A stretch of DNA of 21,845 nt from a virus. The DNA lies in the IMG/VR virus record IMGVR_UViG_3300046816_000127, positions 1 through 21,845 of that record; one strand, given 5' to 3'. Under the pieces are notes generated by a model. That model was not told where the DNA came from and did no database searches. It saw nothing but the letters and a program-made list of their open reading frames with translations. Shown in pieces: positions 1 through 21,259 of the stretch. Each line of letters opens with the position of its first letter. Positions within the stretch are counted from its first letter, which is position 1. Made by a program: the position numbers and the translations under genes.

Positions 1-85
1 CAGGCGCGATCGAGCCCCAGGCGCGATCGAGCCCCAGGCGCGATCGAGCCCCAGGCGCGATTGGAGCCCAGGCGCGATCGGAGCC
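1..85. repeat. Five tandem 17-bp direct repeats (iteron-like)
   Basis: Units of CAGGCGCGATCGAGCCC start at 1, 18, 35, 52 and 69. The first three are identical; the last two differ by small changes around the central GATCG. The array is cut by the window edge, so its true length is unknown. A 17-bp period is not a multiple of three, and no start codon opens a convincing gene in it. Direct repeats of this size can be iterons or protein-binding sites, or simply slipped-strand repeats; the sequence alone does not decide. Confidence 0.8.
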
Positions 86-372: not shown

Positions 373-2259
373 CTACTCCGCTGCGGTGGGGTTGGCGTCC
401 TCCAGCATATCGACGAGGACGCCTAAGCCCTTGGCCGATAGTTGGTCCAGGTCATCCACGTTGATGCTGTACTGCGGGGGGAAAGCGGCAATCACGCGTG
501 GGGCGTTCAGGCCGATCCCGACGGTTTCGACGCCTCGCGCGGCGGCCAAGCGACAAGCGGCTGTCACGGTTGCAGGGCCAAGGTCGCAGTCGCCATCGGT
601 CAGGACCATGATGATGCGGCGCGATGCATCGATCCCGGCAAGCATGTTTGCCGCTTCGACGATGGCAGGCGAAAGCGGGGTTTGCCCGCCCGGGCCGATC
701 GCCCAAATGGCCGTAGCGCAAGCGGCCATCGGCATGCTCCAGGGCTTCACCATTTCAAGCTCTGTGTAGGATGACCCTGTGACACCATCGCGCCAATGAA
801 AGCTGGCAATGCCAAGCTTGGCGTTGGCGCTTTCCGCCGCGCGGCCGATGTGCCACGCGGTGGTCTGGGCAAGCTCCATTCGGGAATGACCGCTCGGGGT
901 GCTGAGCCGCATCGATGAGGATGCATCGATGAGGATCAACAACGCGGTATCGATCCCGGGCGTATCGGAGCGGCGCGAATAGACATCGGTTGCGCCCGTG
1001 CGCATGCGCGCCAGCGCGCGCCGATCGAGCCTGCCGCTGCTTTCATGGTGCGTCACACGGCGTTGCTCGTCGGTGACAAGCAAGCGCGCGATCTGACCAT
1101 GCAGGACCGAATTGCGAGGCATGCGCTCGGCGAGCATGCGCGCGGTACCTGTATCGACATAACCGGGCGCGGTCGGGTAGCGGTGCGCTTGCGTAACTTT
1201 GGTGGTCAAGGTTGGCAGGAGATAGCTTTTATCGGTCGCATTGTGATCGTCCAGGTCGGCAATGCCCGCGCGCTTGGCGATTGCATCGATTGCGTCCGTA
1301 AGATCAACGTCCGAAGCAATCTCATTGCCGGAACCATCTCCGGGTTTGGTATCGCCCTGAGCGTCATCGTCCCCTGCGGGGTCGGCATCGCCCTGAGCGT
1401 CATCGCCCTGAGCGTCATCGCCCTGTTCTTCCATCATGCGTCGCGCATTTTCTTCGCGGGTTGGCATTGAATTTTCATTGCCCTTGCTCTGAGCGTCATC
1501 GTCCTGAGCGTCATCGTCCCCTGCGGGGTCGGCATCGCCCTGAGCGTCATCGCCCTGAGCGTCATCGCCCTGAGCGTCATCGCCCTGAGGATGTTGAGGA
1601 AGCGCTTGCTCTATCGCGACAAGTTCAAGCGCAAGCTCCACAACGTCCGAAGTGTTCTTGCATCGGCCGATACGTGCAAGCGCATGGTCAACAAGCCAGC
1701 GGGTATCGCGGGACAAGCCAGCAGCAAGCCCCGCGCCAGCAGGGATCGCGTAGGCGTTGGCAACGCGTCCTAGGATGCATGCGACATAGGGGGCATCCGC
1801 AACGCCAGCGCCAATGATGCGGCCATGCGCTGCGGCCGCTGTCACGGCTTCGTAGTGCAGGTGGTTTGCCATGCCAGCGAGCACGGTGCGCAAAGCCGGA
1901 AAATTCCCGGCTTCGATTTCGCGCGCTTCGATCCTGACATCCTCCAGCGCATTGGTCCAAGCTTGCACGCGTGCGCCAGCAGCGCATGCGCGCTGCCATT
2001 GCCCGCGATCGGAGTGCAGGACGTGGCAGCATTCATGCGCAATGAAAGCCACCAAGCGATCCGCCTCAGCGCGCGTCAATATCGCGTCGGGGGGAAGGCT
2101 CGGCATGTTGATGGTCGCATGGTTGCTGGACCAATCGACGGAAGCGGTTTTTCCGCCTCGCGTCGTGATGGCAACCTTGTGCGCATTGGCGCTGCGCAAC
2201 GCGAGAAGCTTGGTGGCTGTCTCGCGCGCGGCCGCAGTAACTTCGATGTAGCGCGGCAT
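373..2259 (-). CDS. CobT-like VWA-domain protein with N-terminal HExxH motif
   Basis: Predicted partner of the adjacent AAA+ ATPase. The ATG is preceded by AAGGGGGGAA at good spacing. N-terminal region (about 1-220): helical, with HECCH at residues 75-79 in AFIAHECCHVLHSDRG, a zincin-like HExxH as in metallopeptidase-like domains paired with VWA domains. Residues about 224-310: acidic low-complexity linker built from QGDDA-type repeats. C-terminal VWA domain (about 437-628): complete MIDAS with DASSS (445-449), Thr527 in GGQTPLS and Asp555 in VLTDGD, so it should bind a divalent metal. CobT of cobaltochelatase has an acidic linker plus VWA and works with CobS, but no CobN or cobalamin gene is here; a general MoxR/VWA remodelling role fits better. 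Whether HECCH is catalytic is unknown; a clear third ligand was not identified. It follows the ATPase gene by 3 nt, so the two are probably co-translated. Confidence 0.85.
   Translation of the reverse strand: MPRYIEVTAAARETATKLLALRSANAHKVAITTRGGKTASVDWSSNHATINMPSLPPDAILTRAEADRLVAFIAHECCHVLHSDRGQWQRACAAGARVQAWTNALEDVRIEAREIEAGNFPALRTVLAGMANHLHYEAVTAAAAHGRIIGAGVADAPYVACILGRVANAYAIPAGAGLAAGLSRDTRWLVDHALARIGRCKNTSDVVELALELVAIEQALPQHPQGDDAQGDDAQGDDAQGDADPAGDDDAQDDDAQSKGNENSMPTREENARRMMEEQGDDAQGDDAQGDADPAGDDDAQGDTKPGDGSGNEIASDVDLTDAIDAIAKRAGIADLDDHNATDKSYLLPTLTTKVTQAHRYPTAPGYVDTGTARMLAERMPRNSVLHGQIARLLVTDEQRRVTHHESSGRLDRRALARMRTGATDVYSRRSDTPGIDTALLILIDASSSMRLSTPSGHSRMELAQTTAWHIGRAAESANAKLGIASFHWRDGVTGSSYTELEMVKPWSMPMAACATAIWAIGPGGQTPLSPAIVEAANMLAGIDASRRIIMVLTDGDCDLGPATVTAACRLAAARGVETVGIGLNAPRVIAAFPPQYSINVDDLDQLSAKGLGVLVDMLEDANPTAAE
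1351..1590 (-). repeat. 15-bp repeats and 69-bp duplication in the VWA gene linker
   Basis: Within the VWA gene, 15-bp units (on the + strand, GCGTCATCGCCCTGA) encode QGDDA. They occur in two blocks, about 1351-1425 and 1487-1590. A 69-bp stretch at 1357-1425 is repeated without a visible mismatch at 1504-1572, 147 bp (49 codons) away. The phase keeps the reading frame, so expansion and contraction change linker length without breaking the protein. Confidence 0.9.
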
Positions 2260-2262
2260 GGT

Positions 2263-3690
2263 TCAGTTCCCCCCTTGCGCAACGGCTTCGAGCGCACGCT
2301 TCACGTTGCTCGCGTCGTAAGCCAGCAAGCATTGCTCGCGCAACGCTTCAACGTCTTGCTCGGCGGCGCAATTCAGAATTGCCATTTCAAAAGCATCGGC
2401 CGCGCCAATGCCGTCGGTGAGCAATTCCGCCCATGCAAAGAGGCGGCGCAAGCCAATGCCATGCGATAGCGTTGCATCGTTGGCCGCAGCGCGCGTCACA
2501 GTCGCGGCCGATACCAGCAAGCTTGCCAATGCGAGGGTGCAACCCGTCTTTGCGACAATGACGCGTGCTTCGCTGTCGGGGGACATATAATCGAATTTCA
2601 CGCGCACGCTTAAGCGATCGAGGAACGCGTGATTGAGACGATTGGTATCGGTGTAGCCTTTGCGGCTCCCGCCCCCTGTCCCGTTGGTGTTGTCGGTTGC
2701 GCTGAAAATCACGCTGGGCGCGACTGTCACGCGTTCACCTGTCTCATCGAGAAACAGCTTGCGATCCTCCAGCACGTTTTGCAGGACGAACAGCGCTCCA
2801 GAACGCGCCACGCTCGGCTCGTCCAGGCATATGATGCATCCAGGCGTCTTGATGGCGCGCGTCAATTGCCCGTCTTGCCATGTCACGCCTCCGGCCGCGT
2901 CGGGCACTGTCATGCCTTTCAGCGCGGCTGCTTCGGTCCCGTTGTCGCAGCTTATGAGCGCATAGGGACGGCCGGTTTTGGCCGCAAGCTGAGCCATGAA
3001 TTGCGTCTTGCCCGTCCCTGCGGGACCAAACAGCATGATGTTTTTCCCGCGCGCGATTTGGGTGAGGATCGCAGCGGTGCAAGCGGGCCACACATAGCGG
3101 TCATCGATCGCGGGTGTGTGCGGATGCATGCCGTCCCATAGCGCAGTCTCGCGCTTGCCCAGCGGTCCGGTGATACCGAACAGCTTGTTCCACGTTGCAT
3201 GCTTGCCCGTTGGCTTGCTTGCATGCGCGATTGCGGTGCCGCCACCATCGGTTGGCACTTCAACGCGTATCACTTCTGCAGGCTTGCGCGCTTCGATCAC
3301 CAGCGCGCGCAAGCGATCGTCGAAAGCGCTAAAGCCACCCGTTGCGATTAACCCGCGAATTGATTGCATTTCTGCTTCGATCGCGGCCGCATCACCGTGA
3401 GGGTCCTCGTCGGGTGTCGGCTCGTCCTTGATCGCAGGAGCCTCGATCGCTTGCGGCTCGTCCTCGATCGCTTGCGGCTCGATCGCTTGCGCTTGCGTTG
3501 GAGCGTAAAGCGGATTGAGTGCAGCGTGCGCGATCGCGTCGGGGTCTTGCCCTAGCGCGATAAGTGCAGCATGCAGGTCCGTGATTGTGAGGATGTTGAC
3601 AATGCGACCGTTCAAGACGGTTGCGGCGTTGGGGTGTTCACGAAGCGCGCGGCGAAGCGCAGTCCGCACAATGTGAGATGGATAAGCCAC
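2263..3690 (-). CDS. CobS/MoxR-type AAA+ ATPase
   Basis: A 475-residue AAA+ ATPase. I chose the GTG complementary to 3688-3690 because AAGGA lies 9-10 nt upstream; the longer frame to 3861 overlaps the promoter region and has no support. From this start: an N-terminal helical region; a QAIEPQ/QAIEDE repeat linker (about 66-95); Walker A GPAGTGKT (222-229); Walker B CIICLDE (285-291); a sensor-1-like FSATDN (about 329-334); a candidate arginine finger in FLDRL (about Arg359); and a C-terminal lid with GLRRLF. The order and the stretch around NGTEAAALKG resemble CobS-like AAA+ proteins found in bacteria and phages. Such ATPases form hexamers that act on a VWA-bearing partner, here the next gene. 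Substrate unknown. First gene of a two-gene - strand operon, opposite to the virion genes, so probably expressed at a different time. Confidence 0.88.
   Translation of the reverse strand: MAYPSHIVRTALRRALREHPNAATVLNGRIVNILTITDLHAALIALGQDPDAIAHAALNPLYAPTQAQAIEPQAIEDEPQAIEAPAIKDEPTPDEDPHGDAAAIEAEMQSIRGLIATGGFSAFDDRLRALVIEARKPAEVIRVEVPTDGGGTAIAHASKPTGKHATWNKLFGITGPLGKRETALWDGMHPHTPAIDDRYVWPACTAAILTQIARGKNIMLFGPAGTGKTQFMAQLAAKTGRPYALISCDNGTEAAALKGMTVPDAAGGVTWQDGQLTRAIKTPGCIICLDEPSVARSGALFVLQNVLEDRKLFLDETGERVTVAPSVIFSATDNTNGTGGGSRKGYTDTNRLNHAFLDRLSVRVKFDYMSPDSEARVIVAKTGCTLALASLLVSAATVTRAAANDATLSHGIGLRRLFAWAELLTDGIGAADAFEMAILNCAAEQDVEALREQCLLAYDASNVKRALEAVAQGGN
3441..3505 (-). repeat. QAIEPQ-type short repeats in the AAA+ gene
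   Basis: Approximate 15-18 bp repeats carrying TCGATCGCTTGCGGCTCG encode QAIEPQ, QAIEDEP and QAIEAP segments in the linker between the N-terminal region and the ATPase core. They resemble in style the GCGATCGAGCC repeats at the window's left edge, but that array has a 17-bp period. Confidence 0.6.
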
Positions 3691-11939: not shown

Positions 11940-14360
11940 ATGCCGAAAGTAGGAGTTCCGCCACCCTCCAATCTGGGCGCAGCCGGTGCGGCCCCGCCGG
12001 GTATGGGCGGCCCGCCACCGCAGCAGCCGGGTGGAATGCCGCCGGGCATGCCGCCGCTCGATCCGACGCCAGCGACGATCAACCCGGCGCTGGCGCAGTC
12101 GCAGAACAAATTCATCCAGCGCGATGCGCCGGAGCCCGACGAGCCCCGGCGCAAGCTGGTCAAGCGCTGGCAGGATCGCGTCAAGCGCGCGCGCAAGCAT
12201 TGGCGCGTGCCCTTCCGGCGCATGCGCGAGAACGAGGAATTTTGCGAAGGCCGCCAATGGCCGGAGCTGCAGAAATCGGAGAAGCGTGACGATCGCTATG
12301 TCGCGAACATCTGCATCCGGCATGTGCTGCAGCGCACCGCGGAACTCTACCCCAACAACCCGACGATGCAGGCCAAGATCAAGGAGAAGCTGCTCGCGCA
12401 GAATTGGGACGGCAGCAGTCAGCAACTCGGGCAAGCGCAGCAGAAGATGGCGATGGCGATGCAGGCGGGCGTCCCGCCCGATCCCGAGAGCGCGGCCATC
12501 ATGCAGGACGCCGCGCAGGTCAAGCAATGGCATGAGATGATGACGCGGGTCGGCAAGACCCTTGAGCTGCTTTACGAGTACAACATCGGCGAGCAGACGC
12601 ACAGCTTCAAAGGCTCGATGAAGATGACGATCCGGCGCGCGATCGTCACCGGCGTCGGCTATGTCAAGCTCGGCTTCCAGCGTGCGATGAAGCTCAGCCC
12701 GGAGATCGAGCATCGCATCGCCGATATGAGCGAGCGCCTTGCCAATATCGAGCGCCTGGCCGCCGATCTCAGCGACGAGGAAATCGACAAGGACAGCGCC
12801 GACGCCGAGGAATTGAAGCTCGCGATCCAAAGCCTCACCGCAGAGGCGCAGCTGATCGTGCGCGAGGGCCTGACCTTCGATTACCCGGACAGCACCGCGA
12901 TCATTCCCGACACGCGGTGCCGGACCTTGCGGGGATTTCTCGGCGCCGATTGGGTGGCGCAGGAATACCTGCTGACCGAGGACGAGATCGAAGAAATCTA
13001 CATGGTCGACATCGGGACCAGCTACACCGCTTATAACGAGGACGGTCAGAGCCGCGGCTACGAGCCCGGCTCCGAGCAGCGCAGTTACGCGGCGGGCGAT
13101 CCGCATAGCGGCGGCCGCGACAGCGATGGTCCGGCCTCGCTGGCTTGCGTGTGGGAGATCTACAATCGCAAGGACGGCTCGGTTTACATCGTCTGCGACG
13201 GCTATCCCGATTTCCTGCAGGAGCCGAACCCGCCCGAGGCCGAGATCACGCGCTTTTGGCCGTGGTTCGCGGTCACGCTCAACGAGGGCTATGACGAGAA
13301 GACGCTCTTTCCGCAGAGCGATATCGATCTGATCCGCGACATGCAGCTGGAACTCAACCGCGCGCGCCAGGGCTTGCGCGAGCATCGCCGCGCCAACCGG
13401 CCCAAGGTCGCGGTCGCGGCGGGGCTCCTTGAGGAAGCCGATCTCGACAAGCTGCGCACGCATCCCGCCAACGCCTTGCTCGAACTCAACGCGCTGGCGC
13501 CCGGCCAGAAGATCGACGACGTGCTGCAGGTCATCAAGATGCCGGGGATCGACAGCGCGGTCTACGACACGCAGCCGGTCTTCGAGGACGTCTTGCGGGT
13601 CCTGGGCTCGGACCAGGCCGATCAGGGGACCACGTCGAGCGCGACCGCGACCGAGGTCTCGGTCGCGCAGTTCTCGCAGAACACCGATCTCAGCTCGACC
13701 ATCGATGACATCAACGACGTGATGACGGAGCTGGCCCAAGCCGCCTCTCAGGTCCTGGTCCTCAACGTCAGCCAGCAGACCGTGGTCCGGGTGGTCGGTC
13801 CCGGCGCCGTGTGGCCGCAGCTCAATAAACAGATGGTTGCGGATAACATCTGGCTTGAGGTCGACGTCGGCGCCAACGGACCGCCGAACCGGCAGCAAGA
13901 CGTGCAGGTGCTGACGCAGCTCGTGCCGCTCCTGCAGCGCATTCCCGGGATCTCGCCCGAGTGGCTGGCGCGGCAGCTGATCCGCCGCATGGGCGACGAC
14001 ATCGATATCAGCGAGGCTTTCGCCGAAGGCGTGCCGAGCATGGAAGCGCTGAACCAGCTAATGTCGAAGCCGCCTGCCGCGCCTGGAGCGGCTGGCGGAC
14101 CGCCGGGACCAGAGGGTCCTACCGGCGCCGGTCGCGGTCCGCCGCGGCCGCCGGGACCGGGTTCGGACCCGAACGCGCAAGGACCGGCTGGGGCCAATCC
14201 CGCAGCTGCAACCAATGCGATGACTGGTCCCGGCACCGCCGGTCCGTTGGGGCCCAGAGTGCCGCCGCTGCAGATCTACGGCCGTAACGGCAATCGTCCC
14301 GGCACCGGCGGCGGCATGCCGCGCGGCGCGATGGGTAATCCCGGGATGCCAACGCCATGA
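11940..14360 (+). CDS. Portal protein, podovirus type
   Basis: Dodecameric ring at the capsid vertex through which DNA enters and to which the adaptor binds. The 806-residue length matches large podoviral portals. Features: a Pro/Gly-rich N-terminus (1-50); a basic helical start RRKLVKRWQDRVKRARKHW and FCEGRQWPE; the core with FDYPDSTAIIPDTRCRTLRG, the WEIYNRKDGSVY strand and a long helical stem around IDLIRDMQLELNRARQGLREHRRANRP; a TSSATATEVSVA segment typical of portals; and a Gly-Pro-rich, collagen-like C-terminal tail (about 705-806). Start ATG 11940 with GAGAGGT upstream. The long low-complexity ends are unusual. Next gene starts within its stop (ATGA). Confidence 0.9.
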   Translation: MPKVGVPPPSNLGAAGAAPPGMGGPPPQQPGGMPPGMPPLDPTPATINPALAQSQNKFIQRDAPEPDEPRRKLVKRWQDRVKRARKHWRVPFRRMRENEEFCEGRQWPELQKSEKRDDRYVANICIRHVLQRTAELYPNNPTMQAKIKEKLLAQNWDGSSQQLGQAQQKMAMAMQAGVPPDPESAAIMQDAAQVKQWHEMMTRVGKTLELLYEYNIGEQTHSFKGSMKMTIRRAIVTGVGYVKLGFQRAMKLSPEIEHRIADMSERLANIERLAADLSDEEIDKDSADAEELKLAIQSLTAEAQLIVREGLTFDYPDSTAIIPDTRCRTLRGFLGADWVAQEYLLTEDEIEEIYMVDIGTSYTAYNEDGQSRGYEPGSEQRSYAAGDPHSGGRDSDGPASLACVWEIYNRKDGSVYIVCDGYPDFLQEPNPPEAEITRFWPWFAVTLNEGYDEKTLFPQSDIDLIRDMQLELNRARQGLREHRRANRPKVAVAAGLLEEADLDKLRTHPANALLELNALAPGQKIDDVLQVIKMPGIDSAVYDTQPVFEDVLRVLGSDQADQGTTSSATATEVSVAQFSQNTDLSSTIDDINDVMTELAQAASQVLVLNVSQQTVVRVVGPGAVWPQLNKQMVADNIWLEVDVGANGPPNRQQDVQVLTQLVPLLQRIPGISPEWLARQLIRRMGDDIDISEAFAEGVPSMEALNQLMSKPPAAPGAAGGPPGPEGPTGAGRGPPRPPGPGSDPNAQGPAGANPAAATNAMTGPGTAGPLGPRVPPLQIYGRNGNRPGTGGGMPRGAMGNPGMPTP

Positions 14361-15031
14361 GCGACCCGCTCGACTTCACCGGCAGATACAACACGCAGCT
14401 GACGCCCGATCAGGAAGCACAGTATCAGCAATGGGTTCAGCTGCAGTCGGCGCTCAACCATCGTGACATGAGCCAAGACACGTATAACTACGACATGCGG
14501 GGCGCGTTTCTTGGTGGTGCGGGGCGAGCCGGTAACGGGCATTATCCCGATACTTACAAGAAGCCGAACCACCCCAGCTTTTCGGATCAAAGCCAGTACA
14601 ATGGCGCGGACGGCCAGGTCGGCGGCAGCTGGACCCAGATCCCTAACGGCGGATGGTCCTTCGTCCCGGGACCAGCCAACCTGCAAAATCATGGCGCTCA
14701 GGGTCTGCAGAGCTATTTTCAGCGCTCGGACCCGACCGTCCAGCTGGTGTTGCCGCCGCAGCCTGCGCCGAACATGCAGGACTACGTGCGCCAGCAGATG
14801 GCACCGCCTCCGCAGCCACCACCAATTGGACCTCCCATGTCTGGCCCGCCGCAGCCACCACCACCAATTGGACCTCCCATGTCTGGCCCGCCCCAGCAGC
14901 CACCGCCGGTGGGTCCGCCCGTGCAAGGGCCGCAGGACTGGCGGATGATGGCTCCGCCGCCGTCGATGCAGGACTACGTGCGGCAACAGTTAGCGCCGTT
15001 GCCGCCGGGGACGCTGGGTCAGCCGCCGTGA
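14357..15031 (+). CDS. Portal-adjacent proline-rich phage protein (224 aa)
   Basis: The N-terminal half (MSDPLDF...TPDQEAQYQQW, RDMSQDTYNYDMRGAF, GNGHYPDTYKKPNHPSF, SQYNG) is a conserved phage domain that recurs in many tailed phages of Proteobacteria; I do not know its function, though it often lies in head/portal clusters. It is followed by GGSWTQIPNGGWSFVPGPANL and LQSYFQRSDPTVQLVLPP. The C-terminal 90 residues are proline-rich tandem repeats with two copies of MQDYVRQQ. Coupled to the portal by ATGA and to the next gene by GTGA. It is probably a virion or procapsid component, inferred from position. Confidence 0.75.
   Translation: MSDPLDFTGRYNTQLTPDQEAQYQQWVQLQSALNHRDMSQDTYNYDMRGAFLGGAGRAGNGHYPDTYKKPNHPSFSDQSQYNGADGQVGGSWTQIPNGGWSFVPGPANLQNHGAQGLQSYFQRSDPTVQLVLPPQPAPNMQDYVRQQMAPPPQPPPIGPPMSGPPQPPPPIGPPMSGPPQQPPPVGPPVQGPQDWRMMAPPPSMQDYVRQQLAPLPPGTLGQPP
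14813..14893 (+). repeat. Two tandem 39/42-bp repeats encoding proline-rich units
   Basis: CAGCCACCACC...AATTGGACCTCCCATGTCTGGCCCGCC occurs at 14813-14851 and 14852-14893; the second copy has one extra ACC triplet. The repeats keep frame and encode QPPP-IGPPMSGPP. The flanks carry a second duplication, ATGCAGGACTACGTGCG at 14774 and 14966, encoding MQDYVRQQ. Near-identity suggests recent duplication. Confidence 0.9.
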
Positions 15032-15231
15032 CTGAGAAAGAGAGCGGTCTCCTGCACAAGGCGATCGACGTCGGCGGCGGCATTGTCGCCAGCCTTCCCG
15101 CCGTTTTCATCATGCTTTTGTTCATCAACGCGATCTTTCTCGGCTCCACGATGTGGTTCCTTGAGCGCCAGCTTGAGCGCCGCACCGAGCTTTTGACCCA
15201 AATCCTGATGACCTGCCTGCCCAAGCCTTAG
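15028..15231 (+). CDS. Small membrane protein with one TM helix (67 aa)
   Basis: Starts at GTG 15028 in a GTGA overlap with the previous stop. Begins VTEKESGLLHKAIDVGG, has one long hydrophobic segment (ASLPAVFIMLLFINAIFLGS) followed by a charged helix FLERQLERRTELLTQIL and ending CLPKP. The amphipathic tail after the TM resembles small phage membrane proteins of unknown role that lie in head clusters. It could be a holin or a virion membrane-contact protein; the sequence does not decide. Last gene before the non-coding gap ahead of scaffold. Confidence 0.7.
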   Translation: MTEKESGLLHKAIDVGGGIVASLPAVFIMLLFINAIFLGSTMWFLERQLERRTELLTQILMTCLPKP

Positions 15232-15234
15232 GGC

Positions 15235-15284
15235 TTTTGTCTCGCGGCATTTGGGCCCGCGCGAGACACAACCGCTAGACAAAA
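15235..15284. terminator. Nested hairpin ahead of the capsid operon
   Basis: GTCTCGCG (15239-15246) pairs with CGCGAGAC (15260-15267) over a 13-nt loop. An overlapping outer pair TTTTGTCT (15235-15242) and AGACAAAA (15277-15284) competes with it. It lies 3-50 nt after the stop of the one-TM gene. There is no U-tract, so it may be a partial terminator, an mRNA-processing site or an operator overlapping the promoter below. Confidence 0.45.
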
Positions 15285-15304
15285 CCTACACTTGAGCGCA
15301 TAAA
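15276..15304 (+). promoter_or_regulatory. Candidate promoter for scaffold and capsid genes
   Basis: -35 TAGACA (15276-15281, five of six consensus bases), a 17-bp spacer, and -10 CATAAA (15299-15304, four of six). The predicted start is about 27 nt before the scaffold GTG. Position before scaffold/capsid, just after a hairpin, supports it; sequence match alone is modest. Confidence 0.35.
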
Positions 15305-15337
15305 TCTTGCTGGTCCCAGCGGATCGGCAAGAGCCCT

Positions 15338-16450
15338 GTGGCAGATACCGAGACAAATGACGTAATTGCGCCCTCGTCGAGCGCGCCCGAACCTACACCG
15401 GCGCCGTCACCGGCACCGGCCGACAGCTCTCCCGCGCCTTCGTCAAGCGCACCCGACAGCACTTCGCCCTCGTCAGGCGACAGCCGCCAGTCAGATCGCG
15501 ATGGATTGCTTGCCGCAGTCAAACGCGTCGTAGAGACCACCCCCGAAAAGACAGCGCTCCCCTCCTTGTCCCAGGACCAGGACGCGGACGCCGAGCCTTC
15601 GGGACCAGTCTCTCAGGACCAGGCAGCGGCTACGGCCCAGGCGGAAACTCCCCCGCCGGATGCAACCACGACCGAAGCCGACCCGAGCGAGGCCGAGCTA
15701 AAGAAGCTCAGGCCGGAGACGCGTCGGCGCTTTGAGCGTCTTCTCAGTCAACGCAACGAAGCCCGTCAAGCCGTCGAAAACCTGCAACCGGAGCTGCAAA
15801 CGCACCGGCAGCTGCAGGGCTATCTCAAAGAGCACCAGCTGGCGCCGGAAGACGTCAACATGCTCTTGGGCGTCGGCGCCTCGCTCCGTCGCGGCGACTA
15901 CCAAGGCTTTCTTGCCGGTGTGACGCCTTACGTCATGGCGGCGCAGGAAGCATTGGGTCTTCGCATCAACCCGGATCTGCAGAAGCAGGTCGACGACGGG
16001 ACGATCGACGAAGACACGGCCAAGGAGCTGACGCGCACGCGGCATCGCGCCGCGCAAGCCGAAGCCAGGCTGCAAGACGCTAATCGGGAAGTGGCGACAA
16101 CTCAGCAGGTCCAGCACGTCGGCAATATCCGTGCTGCGGTCGACACCTGGGAAGCCGGTATCCAGCGACGAGACCCCGACTACGGCCAAATGGCGGGTGC
16201 TGTTCGCCGCTATGCCCAGGGTCTGTTGCAAGAGCGCGGCACGCCGCGCACCCCGCAAGAGGCCGTCGCGCTGACGCAGACGGCGTATGACGAGGTCAAG
16301 GCTACGTTCGCAGCGGTGCGTCCTGCCCCGCGGCCGACGCGTTCAAGTCCGTCCAGCATCCATGTCTCAACCGGCACGCCGAACGCTCAACCACGCGACC
16401 TCAGAGAGGCGGTGGTCATGGCGATCGCGAACTCGCGGCGGCCATCTTGA
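15338..16450 (+). CDS. Scaffold-like protein (370 aa)
   Basis: Internal scaffold that guides capsid assembly and then leaves or is degraded. Not recognised by a strong motif; the call rests on place directly before the major capsid gene, length and composition. N-terminal 120 residues are Ser/Pro/Ala/Asp/Glu rich and disordered. Residues about 120-300 are helical and charged (ELKKLRPETRRRFERLLSQR, then LQPELQTHRQLQGYLKEH and a long RTRHRAAQAEARLQDANR coiled-coil segment), as usual for scaffolds. The C-terminus has a short SSPSSIHVSTGTP stretch and a basic end, where scaffolds often bind coat. Start is GTG 15338; the ribosome site is weak. Confidence 0.78.
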   Translation: MADTETNDVIAPSSSAPEPTPAPSPAPADSSPAPSSSAPDSTSPSSGDSRQSDRDGLLAAVKRVVETTPEKTALPSLSQDQDADAEPSGPVSQDQAAATAQAETPPPDATTTEADPSEAELKKLRPETRRRFERLLSQRNEARQAVENLQPELQTHRQLQGYLKEHQLAPEDVNMLLGVGASLRRGDYQGFLAGVTPYVMAAQEALGLRINPDLQKQVDDGTIDEDTAKELTRTRHRAAQAEARLQDANREVATTQQVQHVGNIRAAVDTWEAGIQRRDPDYGQMAGAVRRYAQGLLQERGTPRTPQEAVALTQTAYDEVKATFAAVRPAPRPTRSSPSSIHVSTGTPNAQPRDLREAVVMAIANSRRPS

Positions 16451-16467
16451 CATGAGGACGAAGCATC

Positions 16468-17547
16468 ATGGCGTTCACCGCTGGTGAACTTTCCAACATC
16501 GCCAACGCGGCGTTGGATTTCTATTACAACAAGGGCGACACCTTCAAGCAAAGCATCCAGGCCAAGCCTCTGCTGCGCTTGTTCGAGAGCAGCGCGAAGT
16601 CCTTCCCCGGCGGCAAGGGCAATATCAGTCTTGCGGTGAAAGGCGATTACGGCGCAGGCGGCGTGAACGATCACGTCGTCGGCTACACGCACAACGACAC
16701 GGTCAGCTTCTACACGCCCGCCAACATCAAGCGCGTCAACTTCCCGTGGCGTGAGCATCACATGGGTCTGACGCTCACCCATACCGAGCTGAAGATCGAC
16801 GGCATCAGCGTCACCGACGAGGAAGGCGACGGCAGCTCGACCTCGAACCATAGCGATCGCGACGTCACGGTCCTCGTCAACTTGCTGCAGGACAAGCTCG
16901 AAGATTTCGGCGAGCAATATGCGCGCAGCATGAACGCGCTGATGTGGGGCGACGGCACCGGCGATGCGAAAGCCTTGGCGGGCATGCAGTCGATCATCGC
17001 TGCGGTTCCCAACGTAGGGACGCTCGGCGGGCTCGCGCGCACCACTTCCTGGTGGCAGAACCGCGCGGCGACGGCGGCGTTCGGCACGGCAGGCGGCCGC
17101 GGGGCGGTGACGTCGGCGACGACCAACGGCGGCGCGCTCTTGCAATTCCTGCAGTCGGAATATCGCCAGCTGATCCGCTACGGCGGCAAGCCGTCGAAGA
17201 TGCTGGCGGGCAGCGCATTCATCGGCGCGATGGAAGTCGAGCTGCGCGCGAACGGCAATTACACGATGACCGGCTTCACGGGACCCCAGGACGGCTCGAT
17301 GGGGCAGGTGAAGTTCATGAACACGGTGATCGAGTACGACCCGACGCTCGATGATCTCGGCTTCACGAAGCGCGCTTATTGGTGGGATCCACGGCACATC
17401 TACTTGATGAAGCAAGACGGCGAGTGGGATCACAAGTTCACGCCCGCGCGGCCTTACAACCAGTTCGTCATGTACAAGAGCATGACGCATACCGGGCAAA
17501 TCGTTGCACAGCAGGTCAACTCCGCTCTTGTTGTCGAAATCGCCTGA
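16468..17547 (+). CDS. Major capsid protein
   Basis: A 359-residue coat protein, probably HK97 fold. Start ATG 16468 with GAGGA 9 nt upstream. Begins MAFTAGELSNIANAALDFYYNKG, continues through SFPGGKGNISLAVKGDYG, and has FPWREHHMGLTLTHTELKIDGI, NLLQDKLEDFGEQYARSMNALMWGDGTG, then LAGSAFIGAMEVELRANGNY, ending with RPYNQFVMYKSMTHTGQIVAQQVNSALVVEI. The helix followed by a beta-rich second half and the position after the scaffold are standard. Codon use is regular, consistent with high expression. A stem-loop follows the stop, which would let capsid mRNA accumulate above the downstream genes. Confidence 0.9.
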   Translation: MAFTAGELSNIANAALDFYYNKGDTFKQSIQAKPLLRLFESSAKSFPGGKGNISLAVKGDYGAGGVNDHVVGYTHNDTVSFYTPANIKRVNFPWREHHMGLTLTHTELKIDGISVTDEEGDGSSTSNHSDRDVTVLVNLLQDKLEDFGEQYARSMNALMWGDGTGDAKALAGMQSIIAAVPNVGTLGGLARTTSWWQNRAATAAFGTAGGRGAVTSATTNGGALLQFLQSEYRQLIRYGGKPSKMLAGSAFIGAMEVELRANGNYTMTGFTGPQDGSMGQVKFMNTVIEYDPTLDDLGFTKRAYWWDPRHIYLMKQDGEWDHKFTPARPYNQFVMYKSMTHTGQIVAQQVNSALVVEIA

Positions 17548-17577
17548 CGCCTTTTCCCCGTAGGCGACAAACTTGGG

Positions 17578-17626
17578 GGCCAGCCCGTTCCACCCCTCTA
17601 CCCCGAAGCGGGCTGGTCCTCTCTTT
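17578..17626 (+). terminator. Stem-loop after the major capsid gene
   Basis: GGCCAGCCCG (17578-17587) pairs with CGGGCTGGTC (17609-17618) with one G-U pair and a 21-nt loop, followed by CTCTCTTT. It lies about 30 nt past the capsid stop and just before the AAGGAG of the next gene, so it is probably a leaky terminator or mRNA-stabilising hairpin. Confidence 0.65.
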
Positions 17627-17641
17627 AGCAAAGGAGATTTC

Positions 17642-17881
17642 ATGCCGAGCACATCCAAGGCTCAAAGCCGTCTGATGCACGGGGTCGCGTCGGGCGGCAT
17701 CAAAGGCAGCGGCGTGCCGAAGAAAGTCGCGAAGGATTTCGTCGCCGCCGACAAGGGCAAGAGCCAGGCGAAGCTGCCCGCGCGTAAAGTCCCGCTCGCG
17801 GCGGGGCCCAGCATGGCCGACACGGTGATGCCGCCCTCGATGCCGCCATCGCCGGGAATGATGAAGCGGGGTGGCGTCTGA
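17642..17881 (+). CDS. SKAQ-type small phage protein (79 aa)
   Basis: ATG 17642 follows a strong AAAGGAG at good spacing; the longer frame to 17573 runs through the stem-loop and is not supported. Begins MPSTSKAQSRLMHGVASGG and has GVPKKVAKDFVAADKGK, a pattern shared by small basic phage proteins that start with (P)SKSKAQQ. Function of those is unknown. The C-terminus is Pro/Met rich (MPPSMPPSPGMMKRGG). Position after the capsid gene suggests a head or DNA-binding minor protein, but this is inference. TGATG overlap with the next gene. Confidence 0.72.
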   Translation: MPSTSKAQSRLMHGVASGGIKGSGVPKKVAKDFVAADKGKSQAKLPARKVPLAAGPSMADTVMPPSMPPSPGMMKRGGV

Positions 17882-18534
17882 TGCCCGCCTTTCATCTTTT
17901 GCGCTGCATGGTGAACCTTGGCGGCGACGACAGCACGATCGTCTATCGCGATCGCTCGCGGCCGATCGTTTTTCCCGAGCTGCCGATCCTGCAATTCCTG
18001 CACGGCGAGGAAGCGATCACCGACGTCCATGTCGTGGGCGCTTGGGACGCGCCCAACGATGAAGTGCTGCAGCGGCTGCAGTCGATCTACGCGCCGGAGG
18101 TGATCGAGAAGGTCTTCCCCGGCGCGCGTCCGCGGCTGCCGCTGTCGGATGCGAGCATCCCGCGCTGCACGATGAAGGTCTTCAAGCCGCGCCCGGTCGA
18201 GCCGGACAGTCCCGATCCGAAGCTGCGCCCGCTCGATCAATTCACGATGCCCGAGGACGCGCCCGAGGGACCAGTGGTCCCGCGCGAGACCGAGCCGACG
18301 CCGGACGAGATCGCGGCGCATGCGCAGGACGAGGACGAGATCGAGGACGACGCGCTGGGGCTGGGGCCCCAAGCCGGGGACCAGCCGCATATCGTGCGCG
18401 ACACCAGCGGTCGCGGATCCTCGCGTCGCGCCAGCGCCGCACGCATTTCCCCAACTTTGCCGGACGTCAACGCAGGCGGCAGCCATCCGCCCGGCTTCGA
18501 GAACTACACCTCGAAAGTTCTTCCGCGCGAGTAA
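17881..18534 (+). CDS. Acidic phage structural-region protein of unknown function (217 aa)
   Basis: The N-terminal domain (about 1-110) contains MPAFHLLRCMVNLGGD and PELPILQFLHGEEAITDV, a layout seen in phage proteins encoded between capsid and adaptor. It ends with a conserved-looking EVIEKVFPGARPRLPLSD stretch. The C-terminal half is acidic and disordered, with QDEDEIEDDALGLGP and an STLPDVNAGG-like end. I do not recognise a named family. Between coat and adaptor, a minor head or neck role is possible. Coupled to the SKAQ gene by TGATG; 3 nt before the adaptor start. Confidence 0.72.
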   Translation: MPAFHLLRCMVNLGGDDSTIVYRDRSRPIVFPELPILQFLHGEEAITDVHVVGAWDAPNDEVLQRLQSIYAPEVIEKVFPGARPRLPLSDASIPRCTMKVFKPRPVEPDSPDPKLRPLDQFTMPEDAPEGPVVPRETEPTPDEIAAHAQDEDEIEDDALGLGPQAGDQPHIVRDTSGRGSSRRASAARISPTLPDVNAGGSHPPGFENYTSKVLPRE

Positions 18535-18537
18535 GCC

Positions 18538-19290
18538 ATGGGCAGAATGCTTTCCGACATGCTGACCGATCTCCGGGCCGAGGTCGGTCACAGCACCAAT
18601 GTCGCGCATGGGATCAACGACCGCGACACGCTGCTCTATTATCTTAACCGCACGCAGGTCCAGCTGTACCAGGACTACGACTGGCCGCAGCTGATCATCG
18701 ATCGCGACATCAAGCTCGTCGACGGGCAGCGCTACTACCCTTACCCCAGCGATCTCGCCTTCGACGACATCACGCATATCTGGGTGCTGATCAATACGGT
18801 CTATAGCGAGCTGGCCTACGGCATCGGCCCTTATGACATGGTGCTGTGGAACTCCGACGACGGCTTCAAGTGCTGGCCGACGCGCAAATGGATGCACCAC
18901 GCCGACACCAACATGATCGAGTTGTGGCCGATCCCGGACGGGACGGCGATGGACCCGAACGCGATCGTCCGCCTGCGCGGGACCAAGACCGTTACCAAGA
19001 TGATCGAGGACAGCGACGAGGCGACGCTGCCGGATAATATTATCGTGCTGTTCTCGGCGGTCGAGATCCTGCAGCGCGACAACGCCAAGGATGCGAGCCT
19101 CAAGCTCAACAAGGCGAACGAGGCGCTGCGCCGCCATCGCGTGCGGCAATTCAGCCATAAGCAAGTCCGGCCCACCGCGATCGGCGCGGGCGGCGGCGAC
19201 GCGCAGTCCCGGCCCGGGCATCAGCCGGTCCTGGGGCTCGACTACATCCCGCCGGGCTACGGGTCCGGTCCCGGTAGCGTGCAGCGCTGA
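18538..19290 (+). CDS. Head-tail adaptor, SU10/P22 gp4-like (250 aa)
   Basis: Ring protein between the portal and the tail nozzle. Start ATG 18538. The first 60 residues (MLSDMLTDLRAEVG..., DTLLYYLNRTQVQLYQDYDWP) match the N-terminal pattern of podoviral adaptors with an LNRTQ helix. Then a beta-rich middle (GQRYYPYPSDLAFDDITHIWV, KWMHHADTNMIELWPIPDG) and a helical end (EILQRDNAKDASLKLNKAN, EALRRHRVRQFSHKQ). The Gly/Pro-rich C-terminus probably inserts into a neighbouring ring. Order capsid-adaptor-nozzle matches P22-like and related podoviruses. Overlaps the next start by TGATG. Confidence 0.8.
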   Translation: MGRMLSDMLTDLRAEVGHSTNVAHGINDRDTLLYYLNRTQVQLYQDYDWPQLIIDRDIKLVDGQRYYPYPSDLAFDDITHIWVLINTVYSELAYGIGPYDMVLWNSDDGFKCWPTRKWMHHADTNMIELWPIPDGTAMDPNAIVRLRGTKTVTKMIEDSDEATLPDNIIVLFSAVEILQRDNAKDASLKLNKANEALRRHRVRQFSHKQVRPTAIGAGGGDAQSRPGHQPVLGLDYIPPGYGSGPGSVQR

Positions 19291-20714
19291 TGCCGGACCA
19301 GCGGGTCTTCAGTGTCACCGATTTCAAGGAAGGCTTCGATGTCCGCAAGACACCGCTGACCGCGCCGGGCGGCTCGCTGCGCATCTTGGAGAATGCCGTT
19401 CTCAATCAGGGCGGCGAGATCGAGAAGCGCTACGCCTTCGTCCCGATGACGACGATGCCGCCGGTCTATCTCTATTTGCTCGGTCATCGCGATACGCTGC
19501 ATGCTTTCGGCGTCAACACCGGCGGCGCTGTGATCCCGCAAGGGGCGTGCCCCGTGCCGATCGTCGCGCATAACATCGTCTTTGCGGGAACCGGCCCTTA
19601 CGACATTCTCGATGTCGAGCCTTACGACGAGCTGTTCTTCGTTTGCTTCCAGGATCTCGGCACCGGCGTCACCTACTGCTGGTATAACGGCGCGATGGTG
19701 CTGGAAGTCGACAGCAGCTATTCGCACGGCACCTACGCGCGGACCTGGAAGTCGAAGATGTATCGCCTCGACGGCAAATATCTTCGCTTCAGCGGCGTCA
19801 ACAACCCGGCGCAAAACGATCCGAACTCGACCGACGAGCCCGGCGCGGGCTTCATCAACACGGCGCTCAACGATCCGCTCGGCGAGCCGCTGATATCGAT
19901 GGAAGTCTACTATTCCAACATGGCGGTGATGTCGCAGCTGCAGACGCAGATCTGGGCGCTCGATCCCGACCCGACCAAAGACACGCTGGGGCAGCTGCTG
20001 CGCATCGGCGTGATCGCGCCGCAATCGGTGCTGCAGTTCGGCACCGGCGATATCTTGTTCCTCTCCGACAGCGGCGTTCGCTCGCTCAAGTCGAATGTCA
20101 TCAATCTGGCGGCTTCGGTCAACGATGTCGGCTCGCCGATCGATCTGGCGCTGATCCCGTGGATCCGGTCCAACGCGGCCGCCGTGCCGCATGCGGTGGC
20201 GACGGTGCAGCCGATCCAAGGGCGCTACTGGCTGGCGCTGGGTCCGACGATTTATGTGCTGTCGTATTTTCCCGCGGGACATATCACGGCGTGGTCCACC
20301 CTTAGCCCCGGCTTCAACGTGCGCACCTTTGCCCTGATCGGCAACATGGTCTTTTGCGACGACAACGCGGGCAACATCTATCTTTATGGCGGCGCAACGC
20401 GCACGGAGTTCGACAGCTGCAAGATCACGGTCCGCACGCCGCATATGTCGGCCGACAGTCCGACCGAGTGGAAGCGCATCAAGAGCGTCGACGTGATGTG
20501 CCAAGGCCAATGGTCCGTCAGCATCGGCATGCTGCCGAACCGCACCGATCTGTTCGAGCTCTGCGCCACGATCCAGGACAACACCTATGGGCTGCAGAGC
20601 ATCCCGTTCGCGGGCTACGGCACGCATATCGGCGTCCACATGGAGCACGAGGCCCCGGGTGAGGCGATCATGGCGGCGCTGCATTTCAACCTGCAAGAGG
20701 GCGTGACCAAGTGA
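19290..20714 (+). CDS. Tail nozzle / DNA-stabilisation protein, P22 gp10-like (474 aa)
   Basis: Closes the portal-adaptor channel and holds packaged DNA. Start ATG 19290 (TGATG overlap). The 474-residue length is close to P22 gp10. Starts VFSVTDFKEGFDVRKTPLTAPGG, with GGSLRILENAVLNQGGEIEKR, then repeated beta blades: YDELFFVCFQDL, WKSKMYRLDGKYLRFSGVNNP, GTGDILFLSDSGVRSLKS, a RYWLALGPTIYVLSYFPAG blade and GNMVFCDDNAGNIYLYGG, consistent with a beta-propeller-like hub. The GDILFLSDSGVRSL blade is a strong marker of this family. The next gene is coupled by GTGA. Confidence 0.85.
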   Translation: MPDQRVFSVTDFKEGFDVRKTPLTAPGGSLRILENAVLNQGGEIEKRYAFVPMTTMPPVYLYLLGHRDTLHAFGVNTGGAVIPQGACPVPIVAHNIVFAGTGPYDILDVEPYDELFFVCFQDLGTGVTYCWYNGAMVLEVDSSYSHGTYARTWKSKMYRLDGKYLRFSGVNNPAQNDPNSTDEPGAGFINTALNDPLGEPLISMEVYYSNMAVMSQLQTQIWALDPDPTKDTLGQLLRIGVIAPQSVLQFGTGDILFLSDSGVRSLKSNVINLAASVNDVGSPIDLALIPWIRSNAAAVPHAVATVQPIQGRYWLALGPTIYVLSYFPAGHITAWSTLSPGFNVRTFALIGNMVFCDDNAGNIYLYGGATRTEFDSCKITVRTPHMSADSPTEWKRIKSVDVMCQGQWSVSIGMLPNRTDLFELCATIQDNTYGLQSIPFAGYGTHIGVHMEHEAPGEAIMAALHFNLQEGVTK

Positions 20715-21259
20715 GCATCGTCGCGTCGCATCATGTCACGAGGCCGGCGCTTGCTTATATCGTGCGCAACTTGCGCCCGCGCGATCGCGCCGAGATCTTC
20801 GCCCTGCGCTGGGACGATAACGAAGACACGTTCCTCGATAGTCTTCTCCCTGTCGCTGGCGAGCTGTGGCGGATCTGGACGCTCGATGACGAGCCTGTCG
20901 CGATCAACGGTGTGGTCCCGATACGTCCCGGCGTCGTGGTCGCGGGCGCGTTCGGCACGGCGAAGTGGCGTGGCGTGATCCGCTCGATGACGCGCTGGTC
21001 CTTGGATTTCGTGATCCCGGTCCTGAAGAATGCGAACTATCACCGCGGCGAAGCCTATGTCCTGGCCGCGAACACCGACAGCCGTCGCTGGATCGAGATG
21101 CTGGGCGGCGAGATCGAGAGCGTGCTGAAAGGCTATGGCCGACAGCGCGAAGACTTTCTTTTGTACGCCTGGGACCTGACCCGGGACCATCGCGCTTCCC
21201 GCGTGACACGGCACTTGAAGCCGCGCCGTGGCTTCACGGCAAGCATAGGAGTGCAATGA
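20711..21259 (+). CDS. GNAT-fold phage protein, T7 gp13/DUF2833-like (182 aa)
   Basis: Start GTG 20711, overlapping the nozzle stop (GTGA). The fold pattern fits GNAT acetyltransferases: an N-terminal helix with LRPRDRAEIFALRW, strands at about ELWRIWTLDDEPVAINGV and PGVVVAGAFGT, a long helix KWRGVIRSMTRWSLDFVIPVL, then AYVLAANTDSRRWIEMLGGE and a last strand EDFLLYAWDL. The canonical acetyl-CoA loop (R/QxxGxG/A) is not clear, so it may be a non-enzymatic virion protein as for T7 gp13 relatives. The position between nozzle and internal virion genes supports a virion or internal-core assembly role. Confidence 0.72.
   Translation: MSIVASHHVTRPALAYIVRNLRPRDRAEIFALRWDDNEDTFLDSLLPVAGELWRIWTLDDEPVAINGVVPIRPGVVVAGAFGTAKWRGVIRSMTRWSLDFVIPVLKNANYHRGEAYVLAANTDSRRWIEMLGGEIESVLKGYGRQREDFLLYAWDLTRDHRASRVTRHLKPRRGFTASIGVQ

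Follow-up and report, generated by a model that had tools for sequence, protein, structure and literature searches.

Why a tailed phage should carry an AAA+ ATPase gene next to a gene for a VWA-domain protein that also holds an HExxH motif is the question raised by the stretch of viral DNA analysed here, which is 21,845 nucleotides long (positions 1 to 21,845 of the IMG/VR virus record IMGVR_UViG_3300046816_000127) and is called the window below. This DNA is part of a tailed-phage genome; the genes for the terminase, the portal, the major head protein and the tail fibres are on the strand opposite to the pair. A first-pass annotation, made from the sequence alone, had described two adjacent genes 3 nucleotides apart and opposite to the virion block, and both the coordinates and the strand are borne out. 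The domain combination and its pairing in phages are already known: the MoxR-vWA-metallopeptidase combination and pairing of jumbo phages (Iyer et al., PMC7824862) and the viral 'cobST' clusters (PMC8651126) were both published in 2021, and a relative labelled 'peptidase' is known from hundreds of cyanophages (463 phage records match a cyanophage member), so that the novelty implied by the first-pass annotation does not stand. What may be new is a zincin signature running through the family, conjugative plasmids included, together with its coupled loss in some members and a reinterpretation of CobT, none of which we found stated in the open-access literature, subscription papers and preprints being outside that search. 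We read the pair as an ATP-driven AAA/VWA remodelling machine with a putative metallopeptidase domain, acting in replication/recombination or early host takeover, a proposal for which we judge the chances to be evenly balanced.

The ATPase gene occupies 2263..3690 on the minus strand and encodes 475 amino acids from a GTG start at 3690. The longest mechanical open reading frame extends to 3861, and the shorter gene is adopted because four relatives begin exactly at residue 58 of that frame, which is the GTG at 3690. The protein matches Pfam AAA_5 (7.8e-20, 71.7 bits against a cut-off of 22), CbbQ_C (34.4 bits, cut-off 20.6) and phrog_249 (1e-46), and its relatives in the PDB are NorQ, CbbQ, CobS and Midasin. 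Both nucleotide-binding motifs are intact, namely Walker A GPAGTGKT at residues 222-229 (3004..3027, minus strand) and Walker B IICLDE at residues 286-291 (2818..2835, minus strand). With the AAA_5 core, these motifs, CbbQ_C and an adjacent partner gene for a VWA domain with a metal-ion-dependent adhesion site (MIDAS), the protein falls within the CbbQ-NorQ-CobS (CGN) group, and by its sequence the gene encodes a CbbQ/NorQ-type MoxR AAA+ ATPase.

Downstream of it, after a gap of 3 nucleotides (2260-2262), the second gene (373..2259, minus strand) encodes a protein of 628 amino acids, with an N-terminal HECCH domain, then a repeat-bearing acidic linker and finally a VWA domain whose MIDAS is full. 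The linker is of low complexity and covers about residues 223-385 (1105..1593, minus strand), with 25% Asp/Glu and repeated GDDAQ units that come from 15-bp tandem repeats. The VWA domain takes up about residues 435-624 (388..957, minus strand), and its MIDAS is complete, the DASSS motif at residues 445-449 (913..927, minus strand) supplying D445, S447 and S449 and being joined by T527 and D555. Since the full-length AlphaFold model is poor (predicted local distance difference test, pLDDT, 55.5), the VWA part alone was used for structural comparison and the N-domain was refolded separately. In VIA comparisons the modelled VWA domain resembles the MIDAS domains of Midasin/Rea1 (6qta_A: Z 15.5, root-mean-square deviation (rmsd) 3.4, 201 aligned) and of NorD (9qh8_G: Z 14.5, rmsd 3.9, 185 aligned). 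The whole protein matches phrog_1576, a family of unassigned function (8e-16), and phrog_459 (1.4e-6), so that families PHROG 249 and 1576/459 stand in adjacent genes, as in viral CobST-like pairs; in viral relatives where both genes are visible they are likewise adjacent. The Walker motifs, HECCH, acidic linker and full-MIDAS VWA domain listed in the first-pass annotation are thus all present, and its AAA/VWA remodelling pair with a zincin-like domain agrees with the family matches, the conservation and the model.

The N-terminal domain (residues 1-225; 1585..2259, minus strand) is where the phrog_1576 match lies, a family also matched by 13/13 members of a divergent relative set, and it has no Pfam match above cut-off. 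Relatives for its comparison were drawn from viral contigs, annotated phages and plasmids. HECCH, at residues 75-79 (2023..2037, minus strand), is invariant in 10 viral relatives. Across 16 N-domains from unrelated phages and plasmids, 16-91% identical to that of the window, the only invariant residues are M1, P53, H75, E76, H79, N103, D107 and E111; H75, E76, H79, N103, D107 and E111 are again invariant, together with A39, P53 and R165, in a second set made up of 23 sequences from viral contigs. What is more, 19 of 22 divergent members from mobile elements keep HExxH, as do all 47 further viral contigs with members of the SSU5 or cyanophage type. Given this invariance across viral relatives and divergent N-domains, HECCH is far from a product of chance.

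In place of HExxH, phage nickie has SEISK, BUCTxx99 REVST, an Acinetobacter plasmid QEVAK and Rhizobium CobT SMALR. Members without HExxH also lack N103 and/or D107 and keep E106 and E111, a coupled loss (Fisher p 5.6e-4, uncorrected for kinship and perhaps reflecting only two or three events) such as a metal site would give. The residues concerned belong to NALEDVRIE (residues 103-111; 1927..1953, minus strand), the probable source of a third metal ligand. Among HExxH-intact members D107 is kept in 19/19, E111 in 18/19 and E106 in 17/19, so that D107 or E111 are, from the alignments, the best candidates for that ligand, E106 being replaced in two of these members. Three pairs that lie beside DNA polymerase III alpha genes in the same position (loci L052, L053 and L059) have no HExxH and represent natural active-site losses; such pairs would be useful comparators for a catalytic versus a binding role.

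The model of the isolated N-domain (pLDDT 88.8, predicted template modelling score 0.86) runs from a helix through three strands to the HExxH helix (63-82), the acidic helix (96-117) and more helices. Among the best VIA rows are many zincins: APN1 (Z 6.2, 80 aligned, 3.4 Å), DUF885 (6.1), selecase (5.9) and jannalysin (5.5), and also IRAP, DPPIII, ERAP2, M48, LTA4H, SPRTN and LasB. No single Z is more than modest, and what counts is that the same superfamily keeps recurring; since the VIA list does not amount to a search, it says nothing against families missing from it. Together with the conserved signature, the model suggests that the N-domain is zincin-like and probably gluzincin-like. The first-pass annotation had reckoned that a protease would be refuted if HECCH fell in a helix with no third ligand and were not conserved in close homologues. 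The motif is indeed part of a helix, yet it is conserved, and after this helix comes a second one whose acidic residues are conserved too. Several named families were tried and rejected: DUF2201 (PF13203), a family against which that annotation had proposed a search, has no match in the record or the protein, one relative giving a weak match at 0.034; XopG (NCBIfam) matches the HExxH stretch at 17.1 bits against a cut-off of 150, which is motif-driven noise; and SprT-like reaches 13.1 bits against 25.6. PDB profile searches with CobT-free N-domain alignments gave nothing, and the CobT matches obtained in the PDB from another alignment (A2) arise by construction, as A2 itself contained CobT.

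Regarding the stage at which the pair acts, its surroundings in relatives are the main guide. In most element lineages whose annotation was read, genes of replication, recombination or repair lie no more than about 5 kb from the pair, a tally that is our own reading of annotations and is inflated by phage modularity. The close relative of the window has a primase/helicase gene beside the pair, gp46/gp47 and gp45/gp44 are near it in P-SSM4, and DNA polymerase III alpha, ligase or primase genes are nearby in SSU5, RHph_N1_10, nickie, BUCTxx99, Cyrano and the Acinetobacter plasmid. ICP2 and T5S1 have primase, helicase or polymerase genes nearby, an IncC plasmid has ssb-bet-exo and a Marinobacter plasmid an exonuclease gene. 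In both plasmids a DUF3150 gene stands directly 5' of the zincin-VWA gene and beside recombination genes (IncC, L044 3609-6767; Marinobacter, L045 3054-5734), and its product may be a third partner. The spread is wide, as the CRP-810 member has matches in 47 phage records and in 2,020 plasmid records at E 0.01 or better.

The close relative is contig G001 (50,319 bases), with 82-98% DNA identity to the window over long aligned pieces, and the pair is also found in three further relatives of about 50 kb. In G001 the pair is flanked by the tail-fibre block and by the gene for an 823-amino-acid primase/helicase, and the contig also encodes an integrase, a Holliday-junction resolvase, a helicase, an exonuclease, a single-stranded-DNA-binding protein, a DNA polymerase and a likely repressor (a weak match); by this layout the gene block of the pair stands at the margin of the replication/lysogeny module. 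Scans for promoters and terminators near the pair returned no more than chance would. In the interval from the VWA gene to the primase/helicase gene there is an iteron- or origin-like array of 17-bp tandem repeats, with about 5 copies at window 1-85 and 6 perfect copies in G001 (L023 12864-12965); beyond G001 it is not found at the corresponding place, the three other relatives lacking it there. Elsewhere, two structural-region genes of the window (18538-20714; 250 and 474 amino acids) are kept in relatives and have no PHROG match, and an open frame of 2,423 amino acids in G001 (13683-20954, L021/L022) is kept in all three other relatives of about 50 kb.

Among known systems, the pair of group 2.2 jumbo phages has the same domain order and a MoxR partner, a likeness drawn from the published description (PMC7824862); the present pair differs in belonging to a phage group of about 50 kb with an integrase and in a context that favours replication rather than virion assembly. 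The viral 'cobST' pairs and the cyanophage genes labelled 'peptidase' and 'porphyrin biosynthesis' (PHROG 459/1576/17276 and 249) are homologous by PHROG, by alignment and by the HExxH...NxxED...E signature, although N-domain identity is about 15-33% outside the clade of the window, and the VWA gene comes first in several of those pairs whereas the ATPase gene does so here. The nearest annotated pair is ORF3/ORF4 of Microcystis phage Mae-Yong1326-1 (OP028995), labelled CobS/CobT, which has the same order, a similar module layout, HETLH as its motif and about 32% N-domain identity. That phage is reported to infect Microcystis, yet the top hits in its own paper include Devosia and Roseicella; as it shares the pair and module layout with the group of the window, its host assignment may deserve a check. 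NorQ/NorD and CbbQ/CbbO likewise combine a CGN-type ATPase with a VWA partner, the NorD VWA domain being among the best structural matches. None of their N-terminal domains is known to carry this HExxH signature. Work on NorQ-NorD has the VWA protein bound to the ATPase ring and the MIDAS necessary for function, though not for ATPase binding; it also put forward docking by a VWA 'finger' as a feature common to MoxR-VWA pairs (PMC9976466).

If the analogy with NorQ-NorD and CbbQ-CbbO holds, the MoxR/CGN ATPase would form a hexamer, and the VWA protein would be an adaptor docked on its ring and holding the target through the MIDAS. The metal site, presumably for zinc and catalytic, would consist of H75-E76-x-x-H79 and an acidic ligand from the N103-x-x-E106-D107-x-x-I110-E111 helix. 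The ATPase might then loosen a protein complex while the zincin domain cleaves or grips the exposed partner. Since the relatives in unrelated phages and conjugative plasmids lie mostly in replication/recombination clusters, the pair would most likely act in genome replication/recombination or early in host takeover, rather than in virion assembly or cobalamin synthesis.

Several observations weigh against this proposal. The fold match of the N-domain is weak, the best VIA Z being only 6.2, and Foldseek against the PDB gave no match below E 0.001. HExxH is lost in nickie, BUCTxx99, the Acinetobacter plasmid and cellular CobT, which means that catalysis is dispensable in some lineages and that binding may be the main task of the domain. 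Gordonia phage GMA3 (integrase alone) and the haloarchaeal HCTV-16 (nucleases alone) show no clear replication neighbour, the other neighbour of the pair in the window is the divergent tail-fibre block, and early phage genes are often near replication genes, so that neighbourhood says little about the target.

One alternative is that the zincin-like domain serves for binding and has no catalytic role, the pair being a pure AAA/VWA remodeller like NorQD. The motif has been lost repeatedly while the pair was kept in place, and E106/E111 persist where HExxH is gone; we nevertheless hold this to be unlikely, since H75, E76, H79 and D107 are strictly kept at less than 25% identity, as selection on a metal site would give. 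For the same architecture in group 2.2 jumbo phages a role in virion assembly was proposed, with structural proteins being folded or remodelled by MoxR-vWA and processed by the metallopeptidase domain, and a MoxR-type pair acts in tail development of Acidianus two-tailed virus (PMC7824862). The divergent position of the pair beside the tail-fibre genes would suit this idea. However, the ATPase of that virus, p618, is of the RavA subfamily and not CGN (PMC3893208), most relatives are in replication modules, and the same zincin-VWA protein occurs in the conjugative IncC and Marinobacter plasmids; as such plasmids form no virions, the maturation of virions could at most be a local role and not the general one, and we consider the idea improbable. 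Similarly improbable in our view is a counter-defence machine dismantling a host nucleoprotein defence complex. It would accord with plasmid copies near recombination genes and with the occurrence of window-type proteins in viral records only, none being found in 84,980 species genomes at the sensitivity of that scan. Against it, a PADLOC scan for known defence systems returned nothing beyond weak P-loop matches.

A further alternative is an auxiliary cobaltochelatase, in which viral CobST works with host CobN and raises cobalamin output, an idea put forward for tailed viruses, those of archaea among them (PLoS Biol 2021, PMC8651126). Phage relatives are labelled CobS/CobT, cellular CobS/CobT has the same layout of an AAA protein plus N-domain, acidic linker and VWA, and Rhizobium CobS/CobT falls inside the wider family. 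The cellular proteins, however, work with CobN in vitamin B12 synthesis, and CobN (PF02514) is absent from the window record and the four relatives of about 50 kb, as the first-pass annotation had noted for this DNA, although a host could supply it. The ATPase reaches 75.6 bits against the CobS equivalog TIGR01650 (cut-off 558.55) and the VWA protein 13.4 bits against CobT_C (cut-off 21), with no match to PF06213 (CobT) for the window protein. The chelatase-like metal insertion raised in the first-pass annotation is disfavoured, and the nearest relatives are phage proteins and not true cobaltochelatase subunits, the latter being the outcome that would, by that annotation, have refuted a novel role. 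In trees, Rhizobium CobS and CobT stand beside CRP-810/T5S1 (support 96/90 and 91/88), away from the clade of the window, a placement made tentative by long branches and a single cellular row. Escherichia coli has no de novo corrin pathway, and relatives occur in E. coli plasmids, so cobalamin supply cannot be the general role. With the cut-offs missed, CobN not found and HExxH lacking in cellular CobT, we reject membership in cobaltochelatase and regard the auxiliary role as very improbable.

The relation to CobT itself is closer in other members of the family. PF06213 (cut-off 26.1 bits) is matched by SSU5 (102), CRP-810 (45), T5S1 (40), Acinetobacter (33), nickie (31) and IncC (26.5), and the N-domains of SSU5, CRP-810, T5S1 and IncC have HExxH. 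The 13 aligned cellular CobTs have no HExxH at the corresponding place and an invariant Q at the position of D107, and in Rhizobium CobT HExxH, N103 and D107 are all replaced. Profile-profile comparison of mobile-element with cellular CobT N-domains gave a probability of 58% (pairwise E 1e-4, 190 columns) and only 3% with another alignment, so the link rests mainly on the PF06213 matches. From these sequences, cellular CobT has the look of a relative whose site has degenerated. The 2021 study held phage cobT to be 'mistakenly annotated as a peptidase' (PMC8651126), a statement that becomes doubtful for most members, as the metal site is found in nearly all of those from mobile elements and not in the aligned cellular CobTs. 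A broader proposal, which we offer tentatively and lean against, is that mobile elements share a family-wide ATP-powered metalloprotease of replication or host takeover, that CobST is its cellular offshoot in which CobT lost the protease site, and that the 'cobST' auxiliary-metabolism label would thus be wrong.

The choice between peptidase and CobT is an annotation used across viral ecology, and the family is common; surveys enter it under vitamin B12 auxiliary metabolism, a label that the present evidence does not support for this pair. Of the proteins examined, nearly all from mobile elements keep the metal site and the cellular CobTs lack it; if the broader proposal were true, a subunit of a B12 enzyme would share descent with a protease.

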